Part shown: piece after piece, positions 7,533 through 19,927 of the stretch
How positions within the stretch are numbered: position 1 is the stretch's first letter
Layout of the letters: each line of letters starts with the position of its first letter
Virus record (IMG/VR): IMGVR_UViG_3300025151_000360
Span: 1 to 21,424 of that record
DNA length: 21,424 bases
Origin: a virus
Strand: one strand, 5' to 3'
Position numbers and translations under genes: made by a program
The notes under the pieces: model-generated
What the model was told of the DNA's origin: nothing
Database searches by the model: none
The model's input: only the letters and a program-made list of their open reading frames with translations

Positions 7533-7739
7533 CTACTGGGTATGTCTAAAGTTAAATCCTGTCCCATCTCCATAAGGGATATCTCTTTGTCGATCTCGTC
7601 TTTTTTTATTCCGATCTATTTGTCTTTTGTAGAAATTTCTTTTAGTTGGTTTTTTTATATCAAGACCAGCCATTCTCATAGGATCGCCTTCACCCATTCT
7701 CTCATGTTGCTTGTAAGCGGGAATCTTTTTCTTTATCAT
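7533..7739 (-). CDS. Small, strongly basic protein, first gene of the leftward operon
   Basis: The 68-aa product is highly basic (MIKKKIPAYKQ..., and a cluster KRNFYKRQIDRNKKRRDRQR at about residues 34-53). It has no membrane segment and no cysteine motif. The ATG at 7739 has AAGGAT in good position (TAAGGATTTACTAATATG) and the next gene follows after 26 nt, so it is the promoter-proximal gene of the late operon. It could bind DNA or RNA, but this rests on charge alone. No family is recognised. The basic composition resembles that of the 78-aa protein encoded after the portal gene, without obvious sequence identity. Confidence 0.65.
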   Translation of the reverse strand: MIKKKIPAYKQHERMGEGDPMRMAGLDIKKPTKRNFYKRQIDRNKKRRDRQRDIPYGDGTGFNFRHTQ

Positions 7740-8050
7740 ATTAGTAAATCCTTATAAATGGTTAAATGTCCCTTCGCTGTATGGGGAGAACATATATATA
7801 TATTATTTTTATTATTGGGGTGGGGTAGGGTATCAGTAGTCCTATACGTTTACAGCCGGATGCTTCGGAGTCCGTGTGTGTGTGGGAGTAGGACATCCAT
7901 CTGAGGCTATCTGAGTTCTACAGCCAAGAGTATACTTCCCTATAGAGTAATCAAAGCCTGGGTAACTATCAATATCTTTCTAAGATGTTCCGCCCGGAGC
8001 CCGGAACCCAGCCCAACGGCAAGAAACAGAAGTATATCTCTCTATGTGAA
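7740..8050 (-). other. Untranslated leader of the leftward late operon
   Basis: About 310 bases without a supported gene lie between the leftward promoter and the first leftward gene. Read on the plus strand it holds an alternating TA tract (about 7791-7803), a T/A-rich run to about 7816, a G-rich string with three G-tracts (7817-7830) and a dyad GTTCCG/CGGAAC at about 7988-8008. On the minus strand there is a T7-promoter-like CTATAGGGA at about 7938-7946. A long leader of this kind could carry RNA structure or an origin-like unwinding element, but nothing here proves it. Confidence 0.5.
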
Positions 8051-8055
8051 TCATA

Positions 8056-8089
8056 TGATTATATCATAGAAATTCTTAAAGTAATAGGT
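8056..8089 (-). promoter_or_regulatory. Leftward late promoter, copy 1 of a 34-bp bipartite element
   Basis: On the minus strand the element reads ACCTATTACTTTA, 8 variable bases, then TATGATATAATCA. The second block contains a perfect extended -10 (TGATATAAT; TATAAT at 8063-8058). The predicted start is near 8051, about 310 nt before the first leftward gene. The upstream block lies where a -35 should be but does not resemble TTGACA, so an activator site is plausible. Both 13-nt blocks recur without a mismatch at 12976-13009. Confidence 0.75.
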
Positions 8090-8129: not shown

Positions 8130-8400
8130 TCTGGAAAAGGTGAATTCTTCCTTTTTTTAACTGCTCCGGCTACGCCTGCGCGAAGGGAATCAGCAGGAAG
8201 TCCTTGCGCTTCGCTTGGACTTCGCTGTCTTTCTCTAACTAACTTGCCTACTTGCAGGGTAGCATGGAACCTGAGATAATCAAGACTGCCCAGGGCGAGG
8301 CGATACAACAGCCTCGGTCTTGACTAACTCAGAACCCATGCACCAACGAAAGGTGTAGGCAATTCAGTCTACTAACTATGATTCGTAAGGAGAATCTAAA
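8130..8400 (+). other. Structured leader before the orphan gene
   Basis: About 270 non-coding bases hold several consecutive inverted repeats. AAGTCC (8198-8203) pairs with GGACTT (8217-8222), with an inner GCG/CGC. CAAGAC (8281-8286) pairs with GTCTTG (8317-8322), with inner GAGGC (8297-8301)/GCCTC (8311-8315). GCACC (8340-8344) pairs with GGTGT (8352-8356). The composition is more GC-rich than the flanks. A T-run at about 8152-8158 follows a weak AAAAGG/CCTTTT stem. No tRNA features and no known riboswitch were recognised. It ends in a good ribosome site, AAGGAG. Confidence 0.45.
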
Positions 8401-9054
8401 ATGAAAGATACTTTAGAAAACTTGTTGATGGTTAAGAATATGGTTGGTTTTAGCGCCCAAGGCTCTGCAAATTGCTCTGCCCTCGGATATGCCAAAAGCA
8501 TAGCGAAGCGTTATGTAGTCCCGCAGGTCGAGCCAACTGTGGATAGCAGAGCCGAATGGGAAGATTCGGTAAATACAGAGATGGAGGATTGGCTTCTTGA
8601 CCAGTCTGGAAAATCTGAGGAGTATAATCCTTGGGAAGAACTGAATAAGTTCGCCTTTATTATCCATTCTCTGAATTTGCCGGAGCCGACCTTGGAAAAA
8701 TCTTTGGAGTATCTGATCAATGCGGATTTCACACCGCCGAGTAAGAAAGATATCGAAGAGTTGGTCGGCGAAGTCCGAGACGAGTTTAAGACTAAAGCCG
8801 AGGCTGAAGCCTTCGTTTTACAGTCTCTTGAAGAGGAGCATAAGGTTAGTTGCTCAGAGTTTGAAGAACTCGGATCGGAGTTGATCTTTATTGTCGAGGC
8901 TATGGTTGCTAATGCACAGCCAGTGCCTTTACCTGATGCGTTTAAGGTGAAACTGAGTGGCTTCGCTAAAAAGGCGGTTGATCGACAGCGTGAGCGTAGA
9001 GGTCTTGTCGCCAGTTTAGGTGACTGCAAACTGCTGAAACTCCTGATTATCTAA
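8401..9054 (+). CDS. Orphan 217-aa protein with its own leader and terminator
   Basis: I do not recognise this protein. It is acidic and mainly helical, with several E/K-rich helices (KKDIEELVGEVRDEFKTKAE at about residues 119-138, then EAFVLQSLEEEHKV) and a short hydrophobic C-terminus (KLLKLLII). No membrane anchor, signal peptide, zinc motif or nucleotide-binding motif is visible. The ATG has an excellent ribosome site (AAGGAGAATCTAAA). The gene stands alone between a structured leader and a strong terminator, and is richer in G and C than the neighbouring early genes. This is the organisation of a moron-like cassette expressed independently of the flanking operons. Acidic helical phage proteins of this size are sometimes inhibitors of host enzymes, but no function is assigned here. 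Confidence 0.75.
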   Translation: MKDTLENLLMVKNMVGFSAQGSANCSALGYAKSIAKRYVVPQVEPTVDSRAEWEDSVNTEMEDWLLDQSGKSEEYNPWEELNKFAFIIHSLNLPEPTLEKSLEYLINADFTPPSKKDIEELVGEVRDEFKTKAEAEAFVLQSLEEEHKVSCSEFEELGSELIFIVEAMVANAQPVPLPDAFKVKLSGFAKKAVDRQRERRGLVASLGDCKLLKLLII

Positions 9055-9061
9055 CAGGCAT

Positions 9062-9096
9062 GGGAGTCGGGGCTTCGGCCTCGGCTCCCTTTTTTT
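9062..9096 (+). terminator. Strong intrinsic terminator with UUCG loop
   Basis: A 12-bp stem (9062-9073 with 9078-9089, two G-U pairs) closes an exceptionally stable TTCG tetraloop (9074-9077) and is followed by seven T (9090-9096). It lies 8 nt after the stop of the orphan gene and separates that gene from the early operon. Confidence 0.95.
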
Positions 9097-9112
9097 GCTC
9101 GTCCTTAGATGA

Positions 9113-9126
9113 TGCGACAAGTCGCA
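9113..9126. repeat. Dyad TGCGACAAGTCGCA, copy 2
   Basis: This 6+6 bp inverted repeat around AA shares the core GCGACAAGTCGC with the copy at 8116-8129. It lies just after the terminator of the orphan cassette. Confidence 0.6.
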
Positions 9127-9306
9127 TAAAATTTTCTCGCTCGCTTGCGCTCGCTCGTAACAGCAAGAAACAGCAACGGCACTTCGCTACGCTCAGCCAC
9201 GGCCCTGGGAAAATGACTGAAATTATTAAGGCACGAAAGGTAAACTTTCCTTTAGATATAAGTGATTGTATTTAAAGGAAAACTTAAAGTTATAAGGTAA
9301 ACTAAT
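9127..9306 (+). promoter_or_regulatory. Control region before the early small-gene operon
   Basis: No gene is supported here. The first half holds GC-rich direct repeats (CGCTCGCT twice around 9138-9155, and CTTCGCTACGCTC at about 9182-9194). The second half has a perfect 9-bp inverted repeat, TTTCCTTTA (9246-9254) and TAAAGGAAA (9273-9281). A 10-bp direct repeat AAGGTAAACT occurs at 9237-9246 and 9294-9303, the second copy forming the ribosome site of the next gene. A promoter must lie here if the early operon is transcribed separately, because a strong terminator is upstream; I cannot choose convincing -35 and -10 boxes. The inverted repeat could be an operator. Confidence 0.45.
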
Positions 9307-9438
9307 ATGACATACAAAATAGATAAAGATAAGTATGTATTCTTTAACTGTAAAGGACAAGCAATAGTGTGGACGAGTAACTTCGATGATGCTATGATGC
9401 TTATCCGTGAATTCAATATGGAGAAACGTGATGCTTGA
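9307..9438 (+). CDS. 43-aa small early protein
   Basis: A short frame (MTYKIDKDKYVFFNCKGQ...) begins at an ATG preceded by AAGGT and ends inside the ribosome site and start of the next gene (ATGCTTGA, overlap 8 nt). Its last residues, MEKRDA, are encoded by the repeated junction sequence GGAGAAACGTGATGC. There is no recognised family. Support comes from the ribosome site, tight coupling and position as first gene of the run; because of its length it remains tentative. Confidence 0.55.
   Translation: MTYKIDKDKYVFFNCKGQAIVWTSNFDDAMMLIREFNMEKRDA
9420..9434 (+). repeat. Junction repeat GGAGAAACGTGATGC, copy 1
   Basis: These 15 bases combine ribosome site and start codon. Identical or near-identical copies lie at 9736-9750 and 9906-9920, each at the border of two small genes. 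Confidence 0.85.
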
Positions 9439-9736
9439 TACTCAAACTGTTGCCGATCTTAAGGTATTAATTAAACAAGAGTTTGATAAAAACTCTGAGG
9501 ATTTTGGTGTATTTGAGGACTGGTGGCATGCTCTTGTCAGGCCAGATTATCCTGTAAAAAAACTTCGTCGGCTAGATATCAACATATTTGATGGTGAAAA
9601 GTTTGGGATTCATCCTAGAACTACACGTTTACCTAAAGGTTATAATCCCAATGATACCGGCCTTCAATGTGTAGTTTATATCGTTGATGACAATCTTGAT
9701 ATTGACTATGACAATCCAATGAGACTTGAAATATAG
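9431..9736 (+). CDS. Small early protein, function unknown
   Basis: The 101-aa product starts MLDTQTVADLKVLIKQEFDK and continues with an acidic, aromatic-rich segment (FGVFEDWWHALVRPDY). It ends with an I/V/D-rich beta-like region (VVYIVDDNLDIDYD). I prefer the ATG at 9431 over an in-frame ATG at 9407, because 9431 sits exactly behind GGAGAAACGTG, a ribosome site used again by the next two genes. No family, membrane segment or metal motif is recognised. It is probably co-transcribed with its neighbours. Confidence 0.65.
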   Translation: MLDTQTVADLKVLIKQEFDKNSEDFGVFEDWWHALVRPDYPVKKLRRLDINIFDGEKFGIHPRTTRLPKGYNPNDTGLQCVVYIVDDNLDIDYDNPMRLEI

Positions 9737-9750
9737 GAGAAACGTGATGC
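9736..9750 (+). repeat. Junction repeat GGAGAAACGTGATGC, copy 2
   Basis: This copy is identical to copy 1. Its first G is the last base of the preceding TAG stop, and it supplies the ribosome site and ATG of the 56-aa zinc-finger-like gene. Confidence 0.85.
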
Positions 9751-9917
9751 CTCTGTGTATACATTGTAATCAGTATGTTGAAGATAATTCCGAAGCAGGT
9801 ATGACCAAAGACTTCAGGTATTATCACCCGGATTGCGTCAAAGAATCTGCAATGGATAAGTGGGATGATCTATACTATAATGGAGATGAATCCTTCACTG
9901 ACATAGGAGAAACGTAA
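9747..9917 (+). CDS. 56-aa putative zinc-binding protein
   Basis: The protein begins MPLCIHCNQYVEDNSEAG and has CIHC at residues 4-7 and HPDC near residues 27-30. This is a C-x2-C...H-x2-C set that could hold one zinc ion. The rest is acidic (DKWDDLYYNGDES). The ATG at 9747 is chosen over the in-frame 9726 because it lies directly behind the repeated GGAGAAACGTG ribosome site. It ends in a TAATG overlap with the next gene. The zinc ligand set is seen in the sequence; zinc binding is inferred, and no target or function is known. Confidence 0.65.
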   Translation: MPLCIHCNQYVEDNSEAGMTKDFRYYHPDCVKESAMDKWDDLYYNGDESFTDIGET

Positions 9918-9920
9918 TGC
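9906..9920 (+). repeat. Junction repeat GGAGAAACGTAATGC, copy 3
   Basis: One base differs from copies 1 and 2 (A for G before ATG), which creates a TAATG stop-start overlap. Confidence 0.85.
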
Positions 9921-10135
9921 TCAGAACAGAGATGATTGATAACTTAATTGATTGCTATACGATGAGAGAGTTAAGGGCTTTGGCTGATAGGTTAGGCATT
10001 GATCTTAACGATGATGATGGTAGTCATGCAGACATGGTATTCCTGGCTGACAGAATAGGTGATATACTATTTGATCCTGCGGGTAGTTACCATGAGTTCA
10101 ATAAGTTAGCGGAGGCGAACGATGAGCAAACCTAA
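9917..10135 (+). CDS. Small acidic early protein
   Basis: The 72-aa product (MLRTEMIDNLIDCYTMREL, then ALADRLGIDLNDDDG) appears to be helical. Its first 40 residues recall a small helical bundle in which a leucine-rich pair of helices is followed by an acidic loop. No family is assigned. It starts in a TAATG overlap with the preceding gene behind the third copy of the junction repeat, and its end overlaps the following gene by 14 nt, so expression is coupled on both sides. Confidence 0.65.
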   Translation: MLRTEMIDNLIDCYTMRELRALADRLGIDLNDDDGSHADMVFLADRIGDILFDPAGSYHEFNKLAEANDEQT

Positions 10136-10415
10136 ATCTTTTAAATCTTCCAGTGCTAAACTGGACGAAGATAAGGTAGAGCAAATCTACATTGAGTTAA
10201 GAGAAGGCACAAGTTTTGCGTCGATAGGCAAGATGTTTGATGTGTCTTATGCTACAATACAGAACGTAAACAAAGGTAAGTATTTCAAGATACCTGATGT
10301 GATCTATCCCATTGTAGATAGGCATCATAGATATGGTAAGGAACCTGTTGAACACAGTGAGTTCTGGGATACTTACTGGCCTGAGTCACCTATAAATCTA
10401 GGAGGTTTAAAGTGA
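10122..10415 (+). CDS. Helix-turn-helix protein, putative small regulator
   Basis: This 97-aa protein carries LDEDKVEQIYIELREGTSFA followed by SIGKMFDVSYATIQNVNKGK at about residues 13-53. That is a clear resolvase/Hin-type or sigma-region-4-type helix-turn-helix (SIGKMFDVSYATIQNV: A/G turn, then recognition helix). The remaining C-terminal half is short, with aromatic and charged residues and no catalytic motif. A DNA-binding role is inferred; it might regulate the nearby promoters or guide another early protein. GGAGG lies 7 nt before the ATG, inside the preceding gene. It is one of only two visible HTH proteins in the window besides TerS-like DNA binding. Confidence 0.7.
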   Translation: MSKPKSFKSSSAKLDEDKVEQIYIELREGTSFASIGKMFDVSYATIQNVNKGKYFKIPDVIYPIVDRHHRYGKEPVEHSEFWDTYWPESPINLGGLK

Positions 10416-10561
10416 ATCAAGAACTAAGCCAAGATGTTAAGGAAGCGATTGATTATATCCTGTTTAACTTTGAGTTAGCCGAGGTTGATATAATTCAAGA
10501 GCATTTATTGAAGCATCTTAACTGGTATATTGAGACAACTAATCAACAATGGGAGCATTGA
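10412..10561 (+). CDS. 49-aa small protein with GTG start
   Basis: A frame of 49 codons starts at a GTG in a GTGA overlap with the preceding stop and has an ideal AGGAGG ribosome site (10400-10405). The product (MNQELSQDVKEAIDYILF at the start, QEHLLKHLNWYIE near the end) appears to be a single helical hairpin. It closes the otherwise empty gap before the next gene. No family is recognised. The strong ribosome site and exact coupling are the main support. Confidence 0.6.
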   Translation: MNQELSQDVKEAIDYILFNFELAEVDIIQEHLLKHLNWYIETTNQQWEH

Positions 10562-10562
10562 T

Positions 10563-10805
10563 ATGTATGATCCGTATTCACCTAGTGGTTGGGACATTGA
10601 CGGTCATGGTTCTGTAGAAGTAGGCGATCTTATTTTTGATGACAATCAACTTATATGGATGTGTCTTGATGAGATTACATTGGAGCCTGTAACTGGTGAC
10701 CCAATGGAGACTAAGTTAGAGCCTGTGTTCTGGCTGTCTAGTAAGGATTTGTTTCGCGAGTTGCAGTTAAGTGAGAGTGAATTGATACCCTACTTAGGAG
10801 GTTAA
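10563..10805 (+). CDS. Small acidic early protein
   Basis: The 80-aa product starts MYDPYSPSGWDIDGHGSVEV and contains GDLIFDDNQLIWMCLDEI, a probable beta-rich segment, then a helical acidic end (LFRELQLSESELIPYLGG). The ATG at 10563, one base after the preceding stop and about 8 nt after GGGAG, is preferred over an in-frame start at 10530 inside the previous gene. No family is recognised. Confidence 0.6.
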   Translation: MYDPYSPSGWDIDGHGSVEVGDLIFDDNQLIWMCLDEITLEPVTGDPMETKLEPVFWLSSKDLFRELQLSESELIPYLGG

Positions 10806-10806
10806 G

Positions 10807-11028
10807 ATGCCTTGCAAATATTATTTTAGTGAGATACCCAACAATCAAGAAGGCCAGGAGTTTGTCCGGCTTATGAAAAAGCATCTAAATAAAGATAGAT
10901 ACTTGATGAGAGTGAGAGGTCAGCACTTAAAACCTGGTTTAAATTGGAGGCATTACACTTACGGCCAGGGAATTAAAGACTCAACCCATTTGAGAGTTTA
11001 TATCAATGAAAGTATTAATTGCCTGTGA
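10807..11028 (+). CDS. Small basic early protein
   Basis: The 73-aa product (MPCKYYFSEIPNNQEGQEFV..., MKKHLNKDRYLMRVRGQHLK) is basic with many aromatic residues. No domain is recognised. AGGAGG lies 6 nt before the ATG, and only one base separates it from the previous stop. It overlaps the start of the methylase-like gene by 23 nt, so it is part of the same transcript. Confidence 0.6.
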   Translation: MPCKYYFSEIPNNQEGQEFVRLMKKHLNKDRYLMRVRGQHLKPGLNWRHYTYGQGIKDSTHLRVYINESINCL

Positions 11029-11593
11029 AGAATCTCAAGCAGTAACCAAGGAGTTTAGAGCATTAGGTATTGATGCCTGGTCATGCGACACATTAGATTG
11101 TTCCGGTGGTAGACCTGAGTGGCATATCAAAGACGATGTATCAAAGCATCTCGAAGGATGGGATATGATAATAGCCTTTCCTCCTTGTACTCATCTGGCT
11201 TCTAGTGGTGCGCGATGGTTCCCAGAAAAGATAAAGGATGGAAGACAGCAACAAGGCATTGACTTCTTTATGATGATTGTTAATGCCAACTGTGATAAGA
11301 TTGCTATTGAAAATCCTATTGGAATTATGAGTACCAAGTACCGAAAGCCCGACCAAATTATTCAGCCTTATTGGTTTGGAGACCAGGCAAGAAAGTCTAC
11401 TTGCTTATGGTTGAAAGGTTTGGATAAATTAAAGCCAACTAAAATGGTTGAGCCTGATCTTTATATATGCAAAAACGGAAAGACATTCTCTAGAGATTAC
11501 ATGGTTGCTTTATCTGCCGGTAAAAATAGAGGACACTTAAGAAGTAAAACTTATCCAGGCATTGCATCTGCAATGGCAAACCAATGGAGTTAA
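11006..11593 (+). CDS. DNA cytosine methyltransferase-like protein
   Basis: The 195-aa protein begins MKVLIACEESQAVTKEFRAL, an AdoMet-binding motif I variant common in phage cytosine-methylase-like proteins, with WSCDTL as the following acidic strand. The catalytic loop is FPPCTHLASSGARWF (PPC, C61), and IENP (E102) corresponds to motif VI of C5 methyltransferases. It is much shorter than a complete restriction-type C5 enzyme, and no separate target recognition domain is visible. It would transfer a methyl group to cytosine, perhaps to protect phage DNA, or act as another cytosine-modifying enzyme. Its neighbour ArdC-like protein supports an anti-restriction setting. Family known from phages; activity inferred. 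Confidence 0.8.
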   Translation: MKVLIACEESQAVTKEFRALGIDAWSCDTLDCSGGRPEWHIKDDVSKHLEGWDMIIAFPPCTHLASSGARWFPEKIKDGRQQQGIDFFMMIVNANCDKIAIENPIGIMSTKYRKPDQIIQPYWFGDQARKSTCLWLKGLDKLKPTKMVEPDLYICKNGKTFSRDYMVALSAGKNRGHLRSKTYPGIASAMANQWS

Positions 11594-11594
11594 T

Positions 11595-11855
11595 ATGACT
11601 AGACAAGAACAGTTTGATAAGTTTGACCGTGAGCATCCTGAATTCTGGAATGAGTTTGAGCATCGTGCTTATGTTATGATGACAAAAGGACGCAAACATT
11701 ACTCTGCTCGTACCATCTTTGAGGTATTAAGATGGCATAGTGATCTGGATTCAGGTGGTAAATTCAAGATTCAGAATAACTGGATACCATTCTACGCTAA
11801 GAAGTTTAACGATATGTACTATGTAGATTTCTTTCTTACTAAAAACAGAGGCTAA
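11595..11855 (+). CDS. Conserved small phage protein
   Basis: This 86-aa protein (MTRQEQFDKFDREHPEFWNE; AYVMMTKGRKHYSARTIFEV; YYVDFFLTKNRG) has the appearance of a small conserved phage family in which a helical WxxF start is followed by KGRKHYSA and an RWHSDL strand. I know no function. The ATG at 11595, one base after the methylase stop, is chosen instead of an in-frame start at 11562, which would overlap more and lacks a clear ribosome site. The next gene follows directly. Confidence 0.7.
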   Translation: MTRQEQFDKFDREHPEFWNEFEHRAYVMMTKGRKHYSARTIFEVLRWHSDLDSGGKFKIQNNWIPFYAKKFNDMYYVDFFLTKNRG

Positions 11856-11856
11856 T

Positions 11857-12786
11857 ATGAAAGTTCCTGACAAGATAGCGAATGAGGTAAGGGATTCTGT
11901 CGTTGCTAACCTTACTAAATACAAGGAGGACATTGAGGCAGGGCTACCTGCACCGTGGAATCCTTGGTTTAGACCGTGGAAGAACGACGGTACAACCAAT
12001 ACTCTACAGCCTGTGATGGCTATGAACGGAGTATCTAAGCGTCCTTACAATGGATGCAACTGGTTCCTGCTTAACTTGCTAGTTAGTTATGAGTCGCCTG
12101 ATTACTACACACTGAATCAGATAAAGAAACTCACTGGTTCTGATATGCCTCTATCTAAGGAGGTGTTCCTTGAGGGCAGAGACATTGTATTCTGGAAGCC
12201 TATCAAGATTAATGATAAGGATTCCGGCAAGGAAAAGAAGATACCACTCGCTAAGACCTATAAGGTCTGGAACCGTGAGCAGATTGAGTCATGCGGTCAC
12301 GAACTACCAGAGGTTGCTGTTGCTATGGGTGATGACTTCGATCCCAAGACTGAGATAGATAAGTACCTTGCTAACCTGAATCTAAAGGGAGGCGTTCATC
12401 GTGGTGGTGACATGGCGTTCTACCGTCCGATGGATGACACGATAGGGCTACCTAATGACAGCGCATTTACCTGTGAGCATGAGCGTGAATCAACCAAGGC
12501 ACATGAAGGTGTCCATGCTACAGGAGCCAAGCACAGGCTAGACAGGAAGCGTGGTAGCAGGTTTGGTGATAGTGCTTATGCTTATGAGGAACTGGTTGCT
12601 GAGTTGGGAGCGGCTATGACCTGCCAATATGTAGGCATACCGCTTGAGAAACTACAGCATACACAGTATCTCCAGACATGGCTGACTAAACTGAAGGATG
12701 ATATGTCATTCCTATTCAGTGCCGCCGCTGAAGCAAGCAAGGGATTCCAGATGTTAACTGGCCTGGATCAGTCAGCATCTAAGTGA
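11857..12786 (+). CDS. ArdC-like antirestriction protein with zincin domain
   Basis: The 309-aa protein has the two-part layout of ArdC/DUF1738 proteins. The N-terminal single-stranded-DNA-binding part (residues about 1-165) contains PWNPWFRPWKNDG and RPYNGCNWFLL. The C-terminal metallopeptidase part has HEGVHATGAKHRLDR (HExxH at H216, E217, H220) and the downstream acidic YAYEELVAELGAA (E244/E245) for the third zinc ligand. ArdC proteins on plasmids protect incoming DNA from restriction, and some phages carry relatives. The DNA-binding and protease-like motifs are visible; the target is unknown. It ends the early run. A small gene on the other strand overlaps its last codons. Confidence 0.82.
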   Translation: MKVPDKIANEVRDSVVANLTKYKEDIEAGLPAPWNPWFRPWKNDGTTNTLQPVMAMNGVSKRPYNGCNWFLLNLLVSYESPDYYTLNQIKKLTGSDMPLSKEVFLEGRDIVFWKPIKINDKDSGKEKKIPLAKTYKVWNREQIESCGHELPEVAVAMGDDFDPKTEIDKYLANLNLKGGVHRGGDMAFYRPMDDTIGLPNDSAFTCEHERESTKAHEGVHATGAKHRLDRKRGSRFGDSAYAYEELVAELGAAMTCQYVGIPLEKLQHTQYLQTWLTKLKDDMSFLFSAAAEASKGFQMLTGLDQSASK

Positions 12787-12975: not shown

Positions 12976-13009
12976 ACCTATTACTTTAGCATTTTGTATG
13001 ATATAATCA
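12976..13009 (+). promoter_or_regulatory. Rightward promoter, copy 2 of the 34-bp bipartite element
   Basis: The element reads ACCTATTACTTTA (12976-12988), 8 variable bases, then TATGATATAATCA (12997-13009). TGATATAAT at 12999-13007 is a perfect extended -10, predicting a start near 13014 and a leader of about 35 nt to the gene at 13049. Both blocks are identical to those in front of the leftward operon (8056-8089, opposite strand). The upstream block centres roughly 32 bases before the predicted start, as activator boxes of phage middle promoters do. Confidence 0.8.
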
Positions 13010-13048
13010 AGTATTACATCAACAACTTAGGAGTGAAAGGTAATATAG

Positions 13049-13669
13049 ATGACGGCTAATTTCTTACTGGATCGTATTGTCAGGAAGGGATTGACGTTGA
13101 TGAAGAAAGTTCAGTATGACAGGAGTAAATCTGACAGCATACCTATTGAGGTGTACAAGACTAGATGCCTTGGTTACATTGAAAGAGTCAATGAGTTAAA
13201 GTATTTAAAATCTGAAGACCTTGAAGATGCTAAAAAGAAACTGTTTAATGTATACTTCTATCTTCAGTCAGTGTCAGGACCAGAGAGGCAGACACCACAT
13301 CAAACTGAAATCTCTATTGAGATAGTAAGTAAGGCATTAGATCAGGCTGTTGCTGATGACTATGGTAAACGTACAGGAGGACTAGGGTTTAGTGTTACGC
13401 GAGGATTGACGCTCACGGAAGAAGCAGGTGAGCCTATTAACCACTATTTCCGTAAGGTTAAGAAGCGTCCAGTGTATTCCTTACTGCCTCCTATAGAAGA
13501 CAATCCGTTAGTGACGCCTATAGAGGAGCATATAGTAATGAAACAGACAATGCAGGAGTGGCGTGATGAGATGGCTAAACAAAAGAAGGAAATATTAGAT
13601 GCGAATAAACTGTCAAGACTGCACCCACAAGGAAGCGACACAACTAAATCCGTTTCCGATGTGCGATAG
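13049..13669 (+). CDS. First gene of the metabolism operon, function unknown
   Basis: The 206-aa product is charged and helical, with no membrane segment. Visible stretches are SIPIEVYKTRCLGYIERVNE, then YLKSEDLEDAKKKLFNVYFY, and a K/E-rich C-terminal helix ending in a polar tail. I do not recognise a family. The ATG at 13049 follows AAAGGT and AGGAG at longer spacing; an alternative in-frame ATG lies at 13100. The gene is the first behind the promoter at 12976. Its last 71 bases overlap the next gene in another frame. It may be a regulatory or DNA-associated protein, which is only a guess from its place. Confidence 0.65.
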   Translation: MTANFLLDRIVRKGLTLMKKVQYDRSKSDSIPIEVYKTRCLGYIERVNELKYLKSEDLEDAKKKLFNVYFYLQSVSGPERQTPHQTEISIEIVSKALDQAVADDYGKRTGGLGFSVTRGLTLTEEAGEPINHYFRKVKKRPVYSLLPPIEDNPLVTPIEEHIVMKQTMQEWRDEMAKQKKEILDANKLSRLHPQGSDTTKSVSDVR

Positions 13670-13847
13670 ATGTTGGGCCGTTAGGTTTAGTACCCAGTTT
13701 ATTGATGGAGAAGAGATACCATTCCTAGATATACACAGGGCTAGACTTAAAGGTCTGAATCTTTGGAGGAAAAAAGGCGAGTCCTCTGAAGATTGGGGTA
13801 AAAGATGTAAAGAATTCGCCCAATCAAAATCATATATAGGAACTTAA
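13599..13847 (+). CDS. 82-aa zinc-ribbon-like protein, overlapping the preceding gene
   Basis: The frame starts MRINCQDCTHKEATQLN and continues PFPMCDRCWAVRF, giving CxxC at residues 5-8 and CxxC at about 22-25, a standard two-knuckle zinc set. The first knuckle lies in the part that overlaps the preceding gene by 71 bases, which argues that the start at 13599 (with AAGGA about 9 nt upstream) is real and that the downstream ATG is not. The rest is basic and helical (FLDIHRARLKGLNLWRKKGE). A role in nucleic-acid binding is possible; no family is recognised. Confidence 0.65.
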   Translation: MRINCQDCTHKEATQLNPFPMCDRCWAVRFSTQFIDGEEIPFLDIHRARLKGLNLWRKKGESSEDWGKRCKEFAQSKSYIGT

Positions 13848-13848
13848 A

Positions 13849-14148
13849 ATGTCACATGGACACAGCAAAGATGGTCGTACTCCTACCTATAACTCATGGC
13901 GCAAGATGATGGAGCGTTGTTATAACCGTAATCAGATTGGCTTTGAGAACTTTGGTGGTCGTGGTATTGCAGTAGAACCTGAATGGCACGACTTCGCTAC
14001 ATTCTTGGAAGATATGGGAGAAAGATTTGAGAATACTTTCCTTGATCGTATTGACGTTGACGATAATTATGGCCCGGATAACTGTCGATGGAGTACCCGA
14101 GCAGTACAGGCTCATAACCACGCTCGTCGCCGGGCATTAGCCGCTTGA
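13849..14148 (+). CDS. Small HNH-associated/AP2-like phage protein
   Basis: The 99-aa protein has TPTYNSWRKMMERCYNRNQI, then FGGRGIAVEPEWHDFATFLE, LDRIDVDDNYGPDNCRWST and a basic end. The chain YxxWxxMxxRCYN - GGRGI - W - F - DMGxR - LDRID - NYxPxNCRW is a widespread phage pattern, often linked to HNH or homing-endonuclease-type proteins, with DRID and the following N as the HNH-like core. There is no complete HNH triad, so nuclease activity is uncertain. AGGAACTTAAA precedes the ATG, one base after the preceding stop. It could be mobile or fixed as a DNA-binding protein. Confidence 0.65.
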   Translation: MSHGHSKDGRTPTYNSWRKMMERCYNRNQIGFENFGGRGIAVEPEWHDFATFLEDMGERFENTFLDRIDVDDNYGPDNCRWSTRAVQAHNHARRRALAA

Positions 14149-14333
14149 AGCCAAAGCATTATGATATGCCAATACCGCCTATTGAATTTATTTTAAAAAA
14201 TAATCTTTGTTATTCTTCTGGAAGCATTGTTGCATTAGCATCTACTTGGGATAAAAGAGGAACTTCTGTTCAAGATTTAGAAAAAATAATTCAACACGCA
14301 AAGTTTTTAATTGAGCATATTAAAAAGCAATGA
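14145..14333 (+). CDS. DUF3310-like small protein
   Basis: The 62-aa product reads KHYDMPIPPIEFILKNNL, then SGSIVALASTWDKRGTSVQD, then LEKIIQHAKFLIEHIKK. This follows the phage DUF3310 pattern (HY-x2-PIxPIEyIxxN - GNvikYvxRxxkKgg - DLxKaixyLexLI), although the usual tyrosine/arginine positions in the middle are changed. The start is TTG in a TTGA overlap with the preceding stop and lacks a strong ribosome site, so coupling is likely. It is noticeably more AT-rich than its neighbours. No biochemical function is known to me. Confidence 0.65.
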   Translation: MKPKHYDMPIPPIEFILKNNLCYSSGSIVALASTWDKRGTSVQDLEKIIQHAKFLIEHIKKQ

Positions 14334-14632
14334 CAACTTGGAAACACTGTGAGCGCACCATCGCTAGTATCTTGGGTGGTGTGCGAACAGGTTGCAACGG
14401 TGAATCACGAAGGGATGTTGAGCATCCTAAGTGGAGCATTGAGGTAAAGCACAGGAAGAAGTTACCTGACTGGATACATGATGCTATGGGTCAGGCTGTG
14501 CTAGAAGCAGAACATAGAGTGCCGATAGTTGTACTGCATGAGAAGCAGATGAAGTACGAAGACAGTTATGTTATACTTAAGATCAAAGACTTTAAGGAGA
14601 TCACAGATGAATCAGTGGAAACCAAGGACTGA
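14330..14632 (+). CDS. PD-(D/E)XK nuclease, Holliday-junction-resolvase-like
   Basis: The 100-aa protein contains CERTIASILGGVRTG (E8), then SRRDVEHPKWSIEVKHRKK with D29 and the E38-x-K40 pair. This fits a minimal PD-(D/E)XK nuclease core as found in archaeal-type and phage Holliday-junction resolvases. The next helix (WIHDAMGQAVLEAE) and a strand (VPIVVLHEK) complete the fold. It would cleave branched recombination or replication intermediates before packaging. It begins with an ATGA overlap and is followed by an overlapping gene. Fold is inferred from motif spacing; substrate is not shown by the sequence. Confidence 0.72.
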   Translation: MTTWKHCERTIASILGGVRTGCNGESRRDVEHPKWSIEVKHRKKLPDWIHDAMGQAVLEAEHRVPIVVLHEKQMKYEDSYVILKIKDFKEITDESVETKD

Positions 14633-14819
14633 TATGGTAGACTTTGCAAACAGTATTCTTTCTGGTTGGGGTGATGCAATGGCAGAAGCCAGACGGCCAG
14701 AGGAAGGAGCAATCAAGATTTCAGTAGAGCAGAAGACTGTGAAGTTGAAGTGTGTATATCCCGATCCTGATGACGGATCATCTTACTCATGGGTAAAAGT
14801 AAATGAAGACAAAGAATGA
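14607..14819 (+). CDS. 70-aa hypothetical protein
   Basis: The product (MNQWKPRTDMVDFANSILSG; AMAEARRPEEGAIKISVEQK) has a helical first half and a beta-like second half ending in WVKVNEDKE. The ATG at 14607, behind AAGGAG, is preferred to the in-frame 14568. It overlaps the nuclease gene by 26 bases and the next gene by 17. No family is recognised. Confidence 0.6.
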   Translation: MNQWKPRTDMVDFANSILSGWGDAMAEARRPEEGAIKISVEQKTVKLKCVYPDPDDGSSYSWVKVNEDKE

Positions 14820-15198
14820 AGTGTTGCGTGAGTTGTTCGTAGAGAATGGCCTAATCAAAGGCGAGGACACACATGAACTTAAGTTCGGTAGCAAAGGTAC
14901 GACTATCATAACTCGTACTGGTATTGAGAAGATACAGTACCATAACGATATTGATGTGACGTATAAACTGGAGTCAGTTAATCCAGAGTTTGTGGTAGTG
15001 AAAGCAACCGCTACTAAAGGTGATCTAAAGATGGAGTCGTATGGAGAAGCGTCACCTGCTAATACAAAGCAACCCTATCCTGTAGCAATGGCAGAGAAAC
15101 GTGCATTGTCTAGGGTGATACTTAAGACAACAGGATTCTATAAGTTCGGTGTGTTTGGTGAAGATGAATCAGATGACTTCAAGGAGAAAGTCGCATGA
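14803..15198 (+). CDS. Possible single-strand-annealing (Rad52-like) or DNA-binding protein
   Basis: The 131-aa protein has a beta-rich first part and then GEASPANTKQPYPVAMAEKR followed by ALSRVILKTTGFYKFGVFGE, ending in an acidic tail. The GEASP...P..MAEKRALSRxxLK..G box is shared, as I recall, with a set of phage and bacterial proteins resembling Rad52-type annealing proteins, in which the AEKRA helix follows the beta sheet. This protein is shorter than most of them, so the relationship is only suggestive. Position close to resolvase-like and RecB-like nucleases favours a recombination role. It overlaps both neighbours. Confidence 0.5.
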   Translation: MKTKNEVLRELFVENGLIKGEDTHELKFGSKGTTIITRTGIEKIQYHNDIDVTYKLESVNPEFVVVKATATKGDLKMESYGEASPANTKQPYPVAMAEKRALSRVILKTTGFYKFGVFGEDESDDFKEKVA

Positions 15199-15464
15199 AT
15201 GTAAGAAAGAAAAACGCAAAGGAAAAAGAGTTCGATCAAGCAGAACTAAACAAAGCAAAGCACGACTTGGCTGAATCGGCTATTGGTTTTGCTAATGAAT
15301 TTGCTGAGTGTGATGGCGATGTGTTCTACTCATCGTATAAAGATTTCTCTAATAAGGTATGGCAGTATGAAAGAGAGAAGGAAAACAGTGCAATGCCCAA
15401 GGTAGGTGACACTTGGGATTGGGAAAACAAAGTATGTGGAGCGTATAGATACCGTGACATTTAA
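15195..15464 (+). CDS. 89-aa hypothetical protein upstream of ribonucleotide reductase
   Basis: This charged, helical 89-aa protein (MNVRKKNAKEKEFDQAELNK; ESAIGFANEFAECDGDVFYS) shares an ATGA overlap with the preceding gene and runs up to 59 bases into the ribonucleotide reductase frame. No family, membrane segment or metal motif is recognised. It is probably co-translated with the reductase gene. Confidence 0.6.
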   Translation: MNVRKKNAKEKEFDQAELNKAKHDLAESAIGFANEFAECDGDVFYSSYKDFSNKVWQYEREKENSAMPKVGDTWDWENKVCGAYRYRDI

Positions 15465-17091
15465 AACAGAATTGGGAGAGGCTATCTTCAAGCAGAAGTA
15501 TGCCTCAAATCCCTACGAAACATGGGAGGATAAGGCTCACTCGGTGGTTAACTCTGTGTGTGGAGACTTTAATGGACTGAAGACTCCGCTCATGGAGAAG
15601 TCAGAACGAGACAGGCTTATCAATTATATTAGTGAGTTCAAGTTCATGCCGGGAGGCAGGTACTTATGGTATGCAGGTAGAGAGGCACGATTCTATAACA
15701 ACTGCTACCTATTGAGGCTTGAAGAAGATACCAGAGAGGAGTGGGCTGGCGTTACAGAGAGAGCCATGACTTGTCTGATGACAGGTGGTGGCATAGGTGT
15801 TGATATCTCTAGGGCTAGACCGTCTGGCCGTCAGTTAAGGAGGACAGGTGGCGTAGCATCAGGGCCAATCCCATTACTGTATACCTTGAATGAGGTAGGC
15901 AGGAATGTAATGCAGGGTGGTAGCCGTAGGTCTGCACTGTATGGCAGTATGAACTGGCAACATGAGGACGCAGGTAAACTTCTTCGTGCTAAGAACTGGC
16001 ATGAGATGAGCGTTGGTAATACCACGCTAGCGGAACTGAAACAGGCAGACTTTAACTTTCCTGCACCGTTAGACATGATGAACATATCATTGAACTATGA
16101 CGATGCTTGGTTAAACAATCCTATTAACAGTACGTTTATGGAAAATGTAAGGCAAGCCATGATGACAGGCGAGCCGGGCTTCTCATTTAACTTTGGAGAT
16201 AAACAGAATGAGACTTTACGAAATGCTTGTACGGAAATTACGAGCGAAGATGATTCAGATGTATGTAATCTGGGCAGTGTTAACCTTGCTAATGTTAAAA
16301 CTCTGGATGAATTTCAGGATGTGGTTACGCTCGGCGCTAAGTTTCTAGTATGTGGTTTGATGAGAGCGCACCTACCTTACAAGAAGGTGTATGAAGTCAG
16401 GCAGAAGAACAGTCGTATTGGGTTAGGTCTTATGGGTATGCACGAATGGTTGTTGCAACGTGGATACAAATACGAGATGGTTGATGAACTAAAACAATGG
16501 ATGAAATCTTATGAGCGATTCAGTAAAGAAGCGGCAGACGCGCATTGCGATAGATTTATGCTCGCTAGTCCTAAAGGATATAGAGCAATTGCACCAACGG
16601 GAACAATTAGCATACTTGCCGGGACCACCTCTGGAGTGGAACCTATCTACGCCGTTGCATACCGGAGGCGCTACCTATCTGACGGAACCAAATGGAAACA
16701 CCAGTTTGTCGTTGACGGTACAGCACAAGCACTGATTGATACAGGCATCGATCCTGATAAGATTGAGTCTGCTGTTGACCTGGCATCTGACCCAGAACGT
16801 AGAGTTAAATTCCAGTATGAACTACAGAAGTATGTAGACCATGCGATTAGTTCCACGTTGAACCTACCTGCTTGGGGTAGTGAACTTAACAATGAAGATA
16901 AAGTTGCTGAGTTTGCACAGGTAATTAAGAAGTATGGGCCGGGACTGAGAGGATTGACTGTGTATCCTGACAGTGCTAGAGGAGGACAGCCTATCACATC
17001 AGTACCTTATGAAGAGGCTCATGCTAAACGTGGTGTTATCTATGAAGACAACAGTGAAGAGCAGTGTTTGTCTGGTGTCTGCGGTATATGA
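15406..17091 (+). CDS. nrdJ: Class II (adenosylcobalamin-dependent) ribonucleotide reductase
   Basis: The 561-aa protein holds the catalytic reductase barrel. NNCY (C100) and DVCNLGSVNLA (C287) form the redox pair; NACTEI (N273, C275, E277) is the substrate site with the thiyl cysteine; APTGTISIL binds phosphate; and the C-terminus EEQCLSGVC (C554, C559) is the shuttle pair. No ATP-cone is seen, and no radical-generating small subunit gene lies beside it, which together with the short length fits a cobalamin-dependent class II enzyme. It converts ribonucleotides to deoxyribonucleotides for phage DNA synthesis. The start is uncertain: GTG codons at 15406, 15436 and 15454 are all possible, and the last two would reduce overlap with the preceding gene. 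It ends in an ATGA overlap with the HNH gene. Confidence 0.9.
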   Translation: MTLGIGKTKYVERIDTVTFKTELGEAIFKQKYASNPYETWEDKAHSVVNSVCGDFNGLKTPLMEKSERDRLINYISEFKFMPGGRYLWYAGREARFYNNCYLLRLEEDTREEWAGVTERAMTCLMTGGGIGVDISRARPSGRQLRRTGGVASGPIPLLYTLNEVGRNVMQGGSRRSALYGSMNWQHEDAGKLLRAKNWHEMSVGNTTLAELKQADFNFPAPLDMMNISLNYDDAWLNNPINSTFMENVRQAMMTGEPGFSFNFGDKQNETLRNACTEITSEDDSDVCNLGSVNLANVKTLDEFQDVVTLGAKFLVCGLMRAHLPYKKVYEVRQKNSRIGLGLMGMHEWLLQRGYKYEMVDELKQWMKSYERFSKEAADAHCDRFMLASPKGYRAIAPTGTISILAGTTSGVEPIYAVAYRRRYLSDGTKWKHQFVVDGTAQALIDTGIDPDKIESAVDLASDPERRVKFQYELQKYVDHAISSTLNLPAWGSELNNEDKVAEFAQVIKKYGPGLRGLTVYPDSARGGQPITSVPYEEAHAKRGVIYEDNSEEQCLSGVCGI

Positions 17092-17390
17092 TTGAGAAAG
17101 ATATCAGATGGAAGCAGAAGAAGTACACTGATTGGGTGGCTACATTACCATGCGCCAACTGTGGTACGGAGGATGGTACTGTGGTCGCCCATCATCTGAA
17201 GAGTAAGTTGTTACCTCATAACATTAGAGGTGGAGGTATGTCAGTAAAGGTAGATGATTGGTTAACGATGCCTATGTGTTATACTTGCCATACTAAAGTA
17301 CATGAGGGAGGCATGGATTCAGAGCAACTGGTGTATATATTTAGTACATTGAAAGAAGCATTTAAACAACGGAGGTTTACATTCAAATGA
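17088..17390 (+). CDS. HNH/Ref-type zinc nuclease candidate
   Basis: The 100-aa protein carries CANCG (C22, C25), then VVAHHLK (H35, H36), and DDWLTMPMCYTCHTKVH with C64, C67, H68 and H72. This layout of two CxxC knuckles around an HH and a terminal H is that of small phage HNH proteins related to DUF968/Ref nucleases. Such enzymes nick or cut DNA, some in a RecA-dependent manner. The ATG at 17088 forms an ATGA overlap with the reductase stop and is preferred over 17064. Nuclease fold is well supported by residues; substrate is unknown. Confidence 0.78.
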   Translation: MIEKDIRWKQKKYTDWVATLPCANCGTEDGTVVAHHLKSKLLPHNIRGGGMSVKVDDWLTMPMCYTCHTKVHEGGMDSEQLVYIFSTLKEAFKQRRFTFK

Positions 17391-17701
17391 TTACTGATGA
17401 TGACAAAGCAGAAGCGGCACACAACGCTTTGACTGACAGTGATGAAGAGTATGGTACGCTATCTGCTTATGTTAAGATGGCTCCGCATATGACTAAACTT
17501 ATAAAGGCAAAGGCTTTTTTAAATACATCTGGTACTGTAGCAGAGAGAGAGTCGATGGCTTATGCGTCTGAAGATTATAAGAAGTTCACTGATAATCTGA
17601 AGGATGCTATGGTAGAATACGAGGTTCTTCATGCCAGAAGAGAATCTTGGCAGAGAGAAGTAGATATCTGGCGAACCGTAAGTGCTAACAGGAGAAAGTA
17701 A
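17387..17701 (+). CDS. Conserved helical phage protein
   Basis: The 104-aa product has the pattern DKAEAAHNALTDSDEEYGTL, then KAKAFLNTSGTVAERESMAY, then LHARRESWQREVDIWRTVSA and a basic end. I recognise this arrangement (alternating helices, xGTVAERE box, final IxVWRxxxANRR) as a widespread small phage protein of unknown function, usually found in DNA-metabolism operons. It is likely a helical coiled structure. It begins with an ATGA overlap on the HNH gene and ends in a TAATG overlap with the next. Confidence 0.7.
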   Translation: MITDDDKAEAAHNALTDSDEEYGTLSAYVKMAPHMTKLIKAKAFLNTSGTVAERESMAYASEDYKKFTDNLKDAMVEYEVLHARRESWQREVDIWRTVSANRRK

Positions 17702-17973
17702 TGAGCGATTACGAACAGAAAGATATGGATGGTGTTGTGTTTGAAGTACCTGCTGACCAGTTGACGGAGGATTGGATGGCTCCGTGGTCAGGCAAAGCAA
17801 TGGTAGATGGTGCTATGTATTGGGTAAACATATACGATAATGTATCTAAAGCAGGTAAGCCTTACCGTAAGTTGAAGTTCAAGGCTATGCAAGCAGCGTA
17901 TAATGATAAGCCTAAGAGTGCTGGACCTGCCAAAAACTATAAGAGTGTTGATGACATTCCTTGGGATGACTAA
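17701..17973 (+). CDS. Small protein with SSB-like acidic tail
   Basis: The 90-aa product has a beta-like core (AMVDGAMYWVNIYDNVSKAG, then KPYRKLKFKAM), a flexible basic/proline stretch (NDKPKSAGPAKNYKS) and an acidic end, VDDIPWDD. That end resembles the DDIPF tip by which single-stranded-DNA-binding proteins recruit partners. An OB-type fold followed by linker and acidic tip would suit a short single-stranded-DNA-binding protein, but the fold is not established. It sits between a conserved helical gene and a RecB-like nuclease with TAATG-type overlaps, which supports a role in recombination or replication. Confidence 0.6.
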   Translation: MSDYEQKDMDGVVFEVPADQLTEDWMAPWSGKAMVDGAMYWVNIYDNVSKAGKPYRKLKFKAMQAAYNDKPKSAGPAKNYKSVDDIPWDD

Positions 17974-18638
17974 TGTTTATAACCTATAAGAACGGTAAAG
18001 AGTACAACCTAGATTACGATGAGGATGCTCACTCCTATAAGGTAGACGGAGTGAAAGTCCCATCTGTTACTAGGATTGTAGACGCTTGCTTTCCTAAGAA
18101 CCTGACTGAGTGGGCTGTCGGCGTAGGTGAGGAGGAGTATCGCCGTGTCACTGATGAGGCTCTGGAGATAGGCAACGATTCTCACAAGTGGATTGAAGAT
18201 TACATTACCTTTGGTCACGCTTGTACTGATCCGGGTCATCATATATTTAACCCAACTAAGGCTTTCCTTAAATGGGTAGAAGATATTGAGCCTGACTGGA
18301 AGGATTCAGAGCGTAAGATATACTGTGATAGGTTTAAATATGCCGGGACTGTAGATGCAGTGGCAAAGATTAATGGTCGTGTTTGTGTAATAGATTTCAA
18401 AACGTCCAAGAAAATCTACAAGCCATACCACCTACAGGTAACGGCATACGCCCAGGCAATCAAGAGGATTGATGGTTTGAGACAGTGGCCTTTGGGGATA
18501 ATACTGCGGTTAGATAAAGAGACCGGGCTATATCAGCAGAAAGTATTTGAACCAAAGGATCACTTCAAAACCTTTGTCAAATGTATGGAACTTCGACAGT
18601 GGAGTTCTCTTAGAATTAAGGAGGCTGACATTGTATGA
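17973..18638 (+). CDS. RecB-like PD-(D/E)XK exonuclease
   Basis: This 221-aa protein matches RecB-family (PDDEXK_1/Cas4-like) nucleases. It has GNDSHKWIEDY (H71, E75), SERKIY (E113), YAGTVDAV (D128), VIDFKTSK (D141-x-K143) and LQVTAYAQA (Q155-x3-Y159), in the usual order and spacing. Phage members act as 5'-to-3' exonucleases that prepare ends for single-strand annealing or degrade host DNA. No iron-sulfur cysteines typical of Cas4 are grouped at the C-terminus. A TAATG overlap links it to the SSB-like gene. It ends overlapping the following small gene by 8 nt. Confidence 0.88.
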   Translation: MFITYKNGKEYNLDYDEDAHSYKVDGVKVPSVTRIVDACFPKNLTEWAVGVGEEEYRRVTDEALEIGNDSHKWIEDYITFGHACTDPGHHIFNPTKAFLKWVEDIEPDWKDSERKIYCDRFKYAGTVDAVAKINGRVCVIDFKTSKKIYKPYHLQVTAYAQAIKRIDGLRQWPLGIILRLDKETGLYQQKVFEPKDHFKTFVKCMELRQWSSLRIKEADIV

Positions 18639-18888
18639 AGATCAAGAGGATGTGCTAGGGTTGATAGTAACCCATGCTCAAGCATTAGTATGGGCTATGA
18701 ACCTAGCCAAGAACCATGAGTTAGCAGACCCAGAGGTAGCAGTTACTGTGATGGAAGAGATGCAGAAAGATTCCAAAAGCATATGGGAAGAACAACTCTG
18801 GCGTAAGGTAAGAGATGGATTCCTTGATGAACTACCATCAGCAAGCATATATAAATTTAGTCCAGACACTAGAGGACCAGACACATGA
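18631..18888 (+). CDS. 85-aa hypothetical protein, TTG start
   Basis: The product (LYEDQEDVLGLIVTHAQALVWAM, written here in two parts: LYEDQEDVLG and LIVTHAQALVWAM) is helical and continues LAKNHELADPEVAVTVMEEM and KKF-type basic residues near the end. No family is assigned. The start is TTG at 18631 with AAGGAGG 6 nt upstream (18618-18624), which beats the longer in-frame start at 18547 that would overlap the nuclease by about 90 bases. It ends in an ATGA overlap with the phosphoesterase gene. Confidence 0.6.
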   Translation: MYEDQEDVLGLIVTHAQALVWAMNLAKNHELADPEVAVTVMEEMQKDSKSIWEEQLWRKVRDGFLDELPSASIYKFSPDTRGPDT

Positions 18889-19637
18889 GTAACCTATTAG
18901 TCATTGGTGATCCACACGCTCACCCAAACTACGACAATAAAAGGTTCACGGATTTAGGCAGGTTCATTGTCAAGACCAGACCAGACATTGTAGTATGTAT
19001 TGGTGACATGGCTGATATGCCTAGCCTATCCATGTATGATAAAGGTACTAAGGGATTTGAAGGCAGGAGATATAAGAAGGATGTGGCCGCTGTTATTGAC
19101 GCACAAGAGAAGATGTTTGCGCCCATTAGAAAGGCGCGAGGATACAAGCCTAAGTTTTATATGACACTAGGCAACCATGAGGACAGGATAGATAGAGCCG
19201 TGAACTCTACACCTGAACTGGATGGTGCTATAGGCATGGAAGACTTGCAGTATGAGAAGTTTGGTTGGAATGTTACGCCATTCAAGAAGAGTATTACGAT
19301 CAAAGGAATAACATTCAGTCATTACTTTACATCTGGTGTAGCGGGCAGACCTATTAGTTCAGTACATATAGGTCATGCTCTTGTGTCTAAGTTACACTGC
19401 TCCGCTGTGCAAGGACACTCACATCTATACAATCATTCAGAACAGACACGGCCTGACGGCCAGAAGATATTTGGATTATCGGCGGGTTGCTATTCACATC
19501 CTGAGTACCGTGAGACTTGGTGCAAGGATACTGAATACCAATGGTGGAGAGGACTGATTATGCTTGAGGGTTTAGATGGAGAAGGATACTATAACAGCAT
19601 CCGAGCCATTACACAACGGAGCATTAGAGGAAAATGA
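18885..19637 (+). CDS. Calcineurin-like metallophosphoesterase
   Basis: The 250-aa protein has all sequence signatures of the metallophosphoesterase fold: GDPHAH (D9, H11), IGDMAD (D41), LGNHED (N97, H98), SHYF (H146) and QGHSH (H178, H180). These residues hold two metal ions that hydrolyse phosphoesters. Phage relatives may cleave cyclic or linear nucleotides, RNA or DNA ends; the substrate cannot be read from the sequence. ATGA overlaps join it to both neighbours in the DNA-metabolism operon, so an action on nucleotides or nucleic acids is the simplest reading. A role in removing defence signalling nucleotides is possible but speculative. Confidence 0.88.
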   Translation: MSNLLVIGDPHAHPNYDNKRFTDLGRFIVKTRPDIVVCIGDMADMPSLSMYDKGTKGFEGRRYKKDVAAVIDAQEKMFAPIRKARGYKPKFYMTLGNHEDRIDRAVNSTPELDGAIGMEDLQYEKFGWNVTPFKKSITIKGITFSHYFTSGVAGRPISSVHIGHALVSKLHCSAVQGHSHLYNHSEQTRPDGQKIFGLSAGCYSHPEYRETWCKDTEYQWWRGLIMLEGLDGEGYYNSIRAITQRSIRGK

Positions 19638-19927
19638 AATGGAAGAAGCCTAAAGATACTAAGGCTCTCCAAGAGAAAAGTGCCTACGGCAAAATTAAAA
19701 AGGCAGAGCGGATAACAACGTGGACCAACGTAGCCTACCCTGATAAAGATGCCGTGGCGTTAGAGAAAGAATGGGAGAAGAAAAAGACCAGGATGTTTGC
19801 CAAGTTCTGCTGGGAAAACCTTGGAGCAAAAGCACCTAGCGGTAAACTATGGGAAGAAATCTTCAGAGAAAAGACAGGCGTTGATCTAGTCAATTATGTT
19901 TCTGACCTCACAAGAAAGAAACTCTAG
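19634..19927 (+). CDS. Last gene of the rightward operon, hypothetical basic protein
   Basis: The 97-aa product (MKWKKPKDTKALQEKSAYGK; TWTNVAYPDKDAVALEKEWE; WENLGAKAPSGKLWEEIF) is basic, helical and aromatic-rich. No family is recognised. It shares an ATGA overlap with the phosphoesterase, and its end overlaps a gene on the opposite strand by 42 bases tail to tail. No terminator hairpin is visible in the convergent overlap. Confidence 0.65.
   Translation: MKWKKPKDTKALQEKSAYGKIKKAERITTWTNVAYPDKDAVALEKEWEKKKTRMFAKFCWENLGAKAPSGKLWEEIFREKTGVDLVNYVSDLTRKKL

Follow-up and report, generated by a model that had tools for sequence, protein, structure and literature searches.

Extended -10 promoters that carry TATAAT can be active without any activator. 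The middle promoters of phage T4 contain a MotA box together with a sigma70 -10 element and are characterised by sigma appropriation through AsiA and MotA (PMC2988021). The MotA box, (a/t)(a/t)(a/t)TGCTTtA, is placed 12 ± 1 bp from TAtaaT and spans -35 to -26 when the distance is 13 bp, and the T4 promoter P46 contains an ACTT-centred box which is poorly bound by MotA when unmodified (PMC2988021).

The DNA analysed here (the window, 21,424 nucleotides) is a virus fragment from IMG/VR, in which many relatives were found. Its terminase was found to be about 54% identical to those of Vibrio phages and Pelagibacter phage Baldr and its B12-type RNR 56% identical to that of Roseobacter phage CRP-3, and no close isolate was present among the matches to the window's proteins. 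From these nearest matches of the terminase and the RNR, the uncultured phage is likely to be marine.

Two sites in the window were found to resemble the T4 middle promoters in the presence of a host TATAAT hexamer, often with TGn, and of a phage-specific box near -30 which appears in place of the -35, in the distance of 13 bp between the box and the -10, and in the use of the box at several operons. They differ from T4 in that the box is longer (13 bp, ACC included), is present at two sites only and would serve the head operon besides metabolism, and in that the phage belongs to a different group, as indicated by its SU10-type portal and the terminase matches given above. The presence of TGATATAAT and the absence of a TTGACA match are shared with ordinary sigma70 extended -10 promoters, and the sister phages have as orthologues ordinary sigma70 promoters of the -35/-10 or extended -10 kind, whereas an invariant 13-bp element over the -35 region is foreign to that class. 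As at the promoters of T7-like single-subunit RNA polymerases, a long near-identical motif is repeated before phage operons; unlike those promoters, the motif of the window includes a perfect sigma70 extended -10, and the phage RNA polymerase family PF00940 gave a match in the T7 control (9.9e-110) but none in the window, in the relatives searched or in the cultured relatives (genomes incomplete).

Extended -10 promoter-like elements at two operons

The motif ACCTATTACTTTA-N8-TATGATATAATCA was found at exactly two sites in the 21,424-base record, with the positions and sequences that the initial annotation had quoted for its two 34-bp copies. The plus-strand site (12976-13009) was found to read ACCTATTACTTTA-GCATTTTG-TATGATATAATCA and the minus-strand site (8089-8056) ACCTATTACTTTA-AGAATTTC-TATGATATAATCA. 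The same two sites alone were recovered from the 21.4-kb record when up to three mismatches were allowed, and 100 dinucleotide shuffles contained no motif site. Both copies were found to contain the perfect extended -10 that had been read in them, TGATATAAT, in which TGn stands directly 5′ of a good -10 hexamer (the sigma70 extended -10 criterion), and both sites are, by their sequence, extended -10 promoter-like elements.

Each copy was found to head an operon, as had been proposed. The late promoter (minus strand) contains the box ACCTATTACTTTA at 8077-8089 (-38 to -26) followed by the extended -10 block TATGATATAATCA at 8056-8068, with TATAAT at 8063-8058 and a predicted start near 8051. 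The late operon, whose first gene lies at 7533-7739 (minus strand), runs leftwards from 7739 and contains head and packaging genes for the terminase, the SU10-type portal and the capsid. The metabolic promoter (plus strand) contains the box at 12976-12988 (-38 to -26) followed by the extended -10 block at 12997-13009, with TATAAT at 13002-13007 and a predicted start near 13014, followed by a leader of ~35 nt up to the ATG at 13049. The metabolic operon (13049-19927, plus strand) begins with a gene with no assigned function (13049-13669) and contains RNR, nuclease-like and phosphoesterase genes. The initial annotation had named starts near 13014 and 8051, and these are the ones predicted from the -10 positions. 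The two promoters face outward from either side of the early operon (8401-12786), at a distance of 4.9 kb, and are therefore not back to back.

In the early region, a strong intrinsic terminator (9062-9089, plus strand) was found to contain a 12-bp stem followed by seven T nucleotides, directly 3′ of the gene at 8401-9054 and before the remaining early operon. A putative early promoter at 8275 (TTGCAG-17-GATAAT) was rejected, as it was not conserved in the related contigs L016 or L096, and a candidate palindromic operator, TTAACCTATTAA, found 5′ of early genes in L003, L005, L062 and L083, was resolved into homologous ribosome-binding leaders near start codons rather than promoters. Just 5′ of the metabolic promoter and divergent from it, a 51-aa ORF (12923-12768, minus strand) with a plausible ribosome-binding site was found to be 73% identical in L088 and L005 and 46% identical in L090.

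The predicted untranslated leader of the late operon (7740-8051, minus strand, ~310 nt) was found by sequence comparison to contain three strongly conserved blocks, namely CCCACACACACACGGAC (7886-7870), CCCTACCCCACCCCA (7830-7816) and ATATATATATGTTCTCCCCATACAGCGAAGGGA (about 7806-7769; present in 21/21 sequences), all on the minus strand. Of 21 related sequences, most or all were found to keep the blocks, although the intervening sequence turns over. The leader could be a packaging (pac/cos) site, a C-rich antitermination/Rho leader or a translation-control leader, and an Rfam scan of the window gave no RNA family above the gathering score.

Conservation and distribution of the upstream box

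The box of the late promoter was found to be identical at 13/13 positions in the window and eight related contigs. The late promoters of the window, L016, L095, L097, L014 and L096 were compared with those of L044 and L118, which form a second sub-lineage. Between the sub-lineages, the upstream flanks were 23% identical (unalignable) and the spacers 48% identical, and the invariant positions numbered 13/13 in the box, 11/13 in the -10 block, 3/8 in the spacer and 1/30 in the upstream 30 nt. At a background identity of 30%, 13/13 by chance has a P of about 2e-7, a rough value in which the columns are taken as independent. The conservation was found to end abruptly at the upstream edge of the box. 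An invariant box beside an 11/13 -10 block amid unalignable flanks therefore marks the box as a selected element, and the comparison of sequences shows that these 13 bp (-38 to -26) are specific to the lineage, under selection and other than a -35. The sequence TGATAYAATCA was kept in the relatives, including some without the box (L035, L037 and L099), and no late promoter was identifiable with confidence in L024, L029/L030 or L123-L127. In L095 (about 2650-2690), a second TGACCTATT was found 5′ of the late promoter, 15 bp upstream of the box (TGACCTATTCGCGGATGACCTATTACTTTA), and is possibly a tandem half-site.

At the metabolic promoter, the box position was found to contain ACCTATTATATAG in L088, ACCTATTATAGAG in L005 and GGCTATTACTAGG in L090, whereas TGRTAYAAT was kept in every orthologue inspected. 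The first gene product of L088 and L005 is 96-97% identical to that of the window, yet only 8-9/13 box bases were kept, so box control of the metabolic operon is not generally conserved. The claim that the box is as conserved as the -10 was thus even understated for the late copy and did not hold for the metabolic copy. Judged from these alignments, it is a property of this phage that the boxes at its two promoters are perfectly identical, and clade-wide conservation is limited to the late box.

The box matches TTGACA at no more than 3/6 positions at spacings of 15-18 bp, in line with the initial annotation that it does not look like a -35. In L030 and L091-L094, the box position of the orthologous metabolic promoter was found to contain ACCTATTGACAAA, with TTGACA at 17-bp spacing, and the promoter as a whole (ACCTATTGACAAACGTATTTTTGTATGATACAAT) to be a perfect TTGACA-17-TACAAT. 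The orthologous or equivalent promoter of L051 contains TTGAAG-17-TATAAT and the late promoter of L035 contains TATACA-17-TACAAT. As the sister lineages contain -35 hexamers at exactly 17 bp, the box occupies the -35 register, and with a perfect TTGACA in the metabolic promoter of a sister lineage it would replace a -35. It is therefore probable that the host sigma factor recognises the customary -35 and -10 elements, and in the clade of the window CTATTAC, inside the conserved box, fills the -35 register.

The distribution of the motif was determined by an exact scan for the box and the extended -10, separated by 7-9 free bases, in 2.9 million viral contigs of IMG/VR. Eight contigs were found, all of them relatives and all with the motif at the late promoter, so that, in this exact scan, the further copies which the initial annotation had proposed to look for lie solely there, and none of the exact copies was inside phage genes. 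With looser criteria the scan also returned contig L119 and, in L088 and L005, the metabolic promoter. In 20 whole records searched with three mismatches the motif was confined to the same lineage, and the reversed control pattern gave no match in the same search. A single match, about the chance expectation, was present in 257 Gb of bacterial genomes; it lies in Chryseobacterium, apparently in coding sequence, and the box was rejected as a site of a host regulon. Because the motif is restricted to this phage lineage, a regulator of the box is probably phage-encoded.

Readings of the box and their rivals

The reading that we favour, with somewhat more confidence than doubt, is that the two sites are host-sigma70 extended -10 promoters co-regulated by a phage-specific box which replaces the -35. 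The host sigma70 RNA polymerase would be held by the extended -10, a usable -35 being missing, and the 13-bp box would most likely be bound by a sequence-specific regulator. This regulator would stand in for the contact between sigma region 4 and the -35, by analogy with MotA at T4 middle promoters, and would most likely be an activator of the late head operon and, in the phage studied here, of the metabolic operon as well. That the box binds some regulator, activator and repressor taken together, appears quite probable from the comparisons; such a regulator is most likely made by the phage, and an activator is more likely than a repressor.

The host RNA polymerase alone might read the box as a non-canonical -35 or spacer, for example with region 4 on CTATTAC, and with no dedicated regulator. 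This would agree with the perfect TGN-TATAAT, with the core CTATTAC exactly at the -35 position at 17-bp spacing and with the ordinary sigma70 promoters of the sister phages; however, TATTAC matches TTGACA at 1/6 positions, and a degenerate -35 contact leaves 13 consecutive invariant bases (-38 to -26) amid unalignable flanks unexplained, and we consider it unlikely. A conventional promoter overlapping the late site (TTGACC-18-TATGAT, 8092-8063), in which the box is merely spacer, matches the consensus at 10/12 positions, but its TTG varies (ATGACC in L095 and L014, TTCACC in L044 and L118, TATACC in the metabolic copy of the window), unlike the conserved TGATAYAATCA and box, and it is highly improbable. 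The main alternative is an operator: with a repressor of the phage or the host bound over the -35 region, both operons would stay silent early in infection. Like many operators, the box (-38 to -26) lies in part of the polymerase footprint, it is common to late and metabolic genes, and a strong extended -10 would presumably need early restraint; nevertheless, the box is without the dyad symmetry of most HTH operators, and L088 and L005, which are without the full metabolic box, still contain a weak -35 there, so that we give this alternative a low probability.

The T4-like geometry that had been suggested was borne out at -35 to -26, where TATTACTTTA matches the MotA consensus WWWTGCTTtA at 9/10 positions exactly 13 bp from TATAAT, with the same ACTT centre as in T4 P46; random sequence reaches such a match in 0.15-0.3% of trials. 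True T4-type appropriation by homologues of MotA and AsiA is nonetheless extremely improbable, as the ACC of the conserved box falls outside the MotA consensus and neither the MotA C-terminal domain (PF09158; T4 control 7.4e-71) nor AsiA (PF09010; T4 control 2.3e-43) was found in the window, 14 related IMG/VR contigs and three cultured relatives, the genomes of the closest relatives being incomplete. The C-terminal domain was used with the T4 control for MotA, as the N-terminal family matched neither the targets nor its control. As a MotA-box match was found but neither MotA nor AsiA nor a phage RNA polymerase, the resemblance points to a possible mode of action and not to membership. A phage-encoded sigma factor was rejected, with only two sub-threshold Sigma70_r4 hits among 20 contigs.

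A candidate regulator and the meaning for the phage group

A small HTH protein of 97 aa (10122-10415, plus strand) was the one product of the early region noticed as a predicted DNA binder and is a candidate for binding the box. It was recognised from an HTH_38 match below the curated cut-off and a predicted structure with a three-helix HTH core (mean pLDDT 74), and was considered further by its phylogenetic profile and recognition helix. A Foldseek search with the model gave nothing below E 0.001, the best hits being resolvase/Hin-type and LuxR/MarR-type HTH domains. The gene was present in 6/6 box-bearing contigs long enough to cover its position, among them the distant L118 (53% identity), in which the recognition-helix region matches the window at 14/15 residues. 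It was absent from L030 and L093, whose metabolic promoter contains the consensus -35 TTGACA; these two contigs, L062, L083 and L085 contain neither the box nor the gene. L123-L130 contain HTH homologues of 44-63% identity and no box, and the helix of the box-less L123 matches at 13/15 residues, so the profile does not single out the HTH protein. The absence of the gene in the TTGACA lineage and the recognition helix shared among box-bearing phages are suggestive only of a link to the box, and the protein is the best candidate regulator visible in this genome fragment, with a rather low probability. The family contains an EEIYIELREG motif, a YPI tail and a strongly variable recognition helix; it is a common early gene across the phage group, and a search of 50,697 annotated phage records gave no match to it.

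A phage group unrelated to T4 may independently have evolved a T4-style co-option of sigma70, in which a small early HTH activator, non-homologous to MotA, binds the box that replaces the -35; we regard this as rather doubtful. Under such independent co-option, and with the same reserve, the change from a consensus TTGACA to the box would be visible between sister lineages.

The arrangement of the two boxes suggests that capsid and metabolism genes are switched on or off together by a protein probably made by the phage. To our knowledge, the transcriptional switch of this uncultured, probably marine phage group has not been described. If the favoured reading of a phage-specific box in place of the -35 is true, this would be an independent case of a phage which puts its own control box in place of a host promoter's -35 half, and the sister lineages, with a consensus -35 or the box in the same promoter, would form a natural series on the evolution of such a switch. 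The motif is also a testable marker of late transcription in metatranscriptomes.
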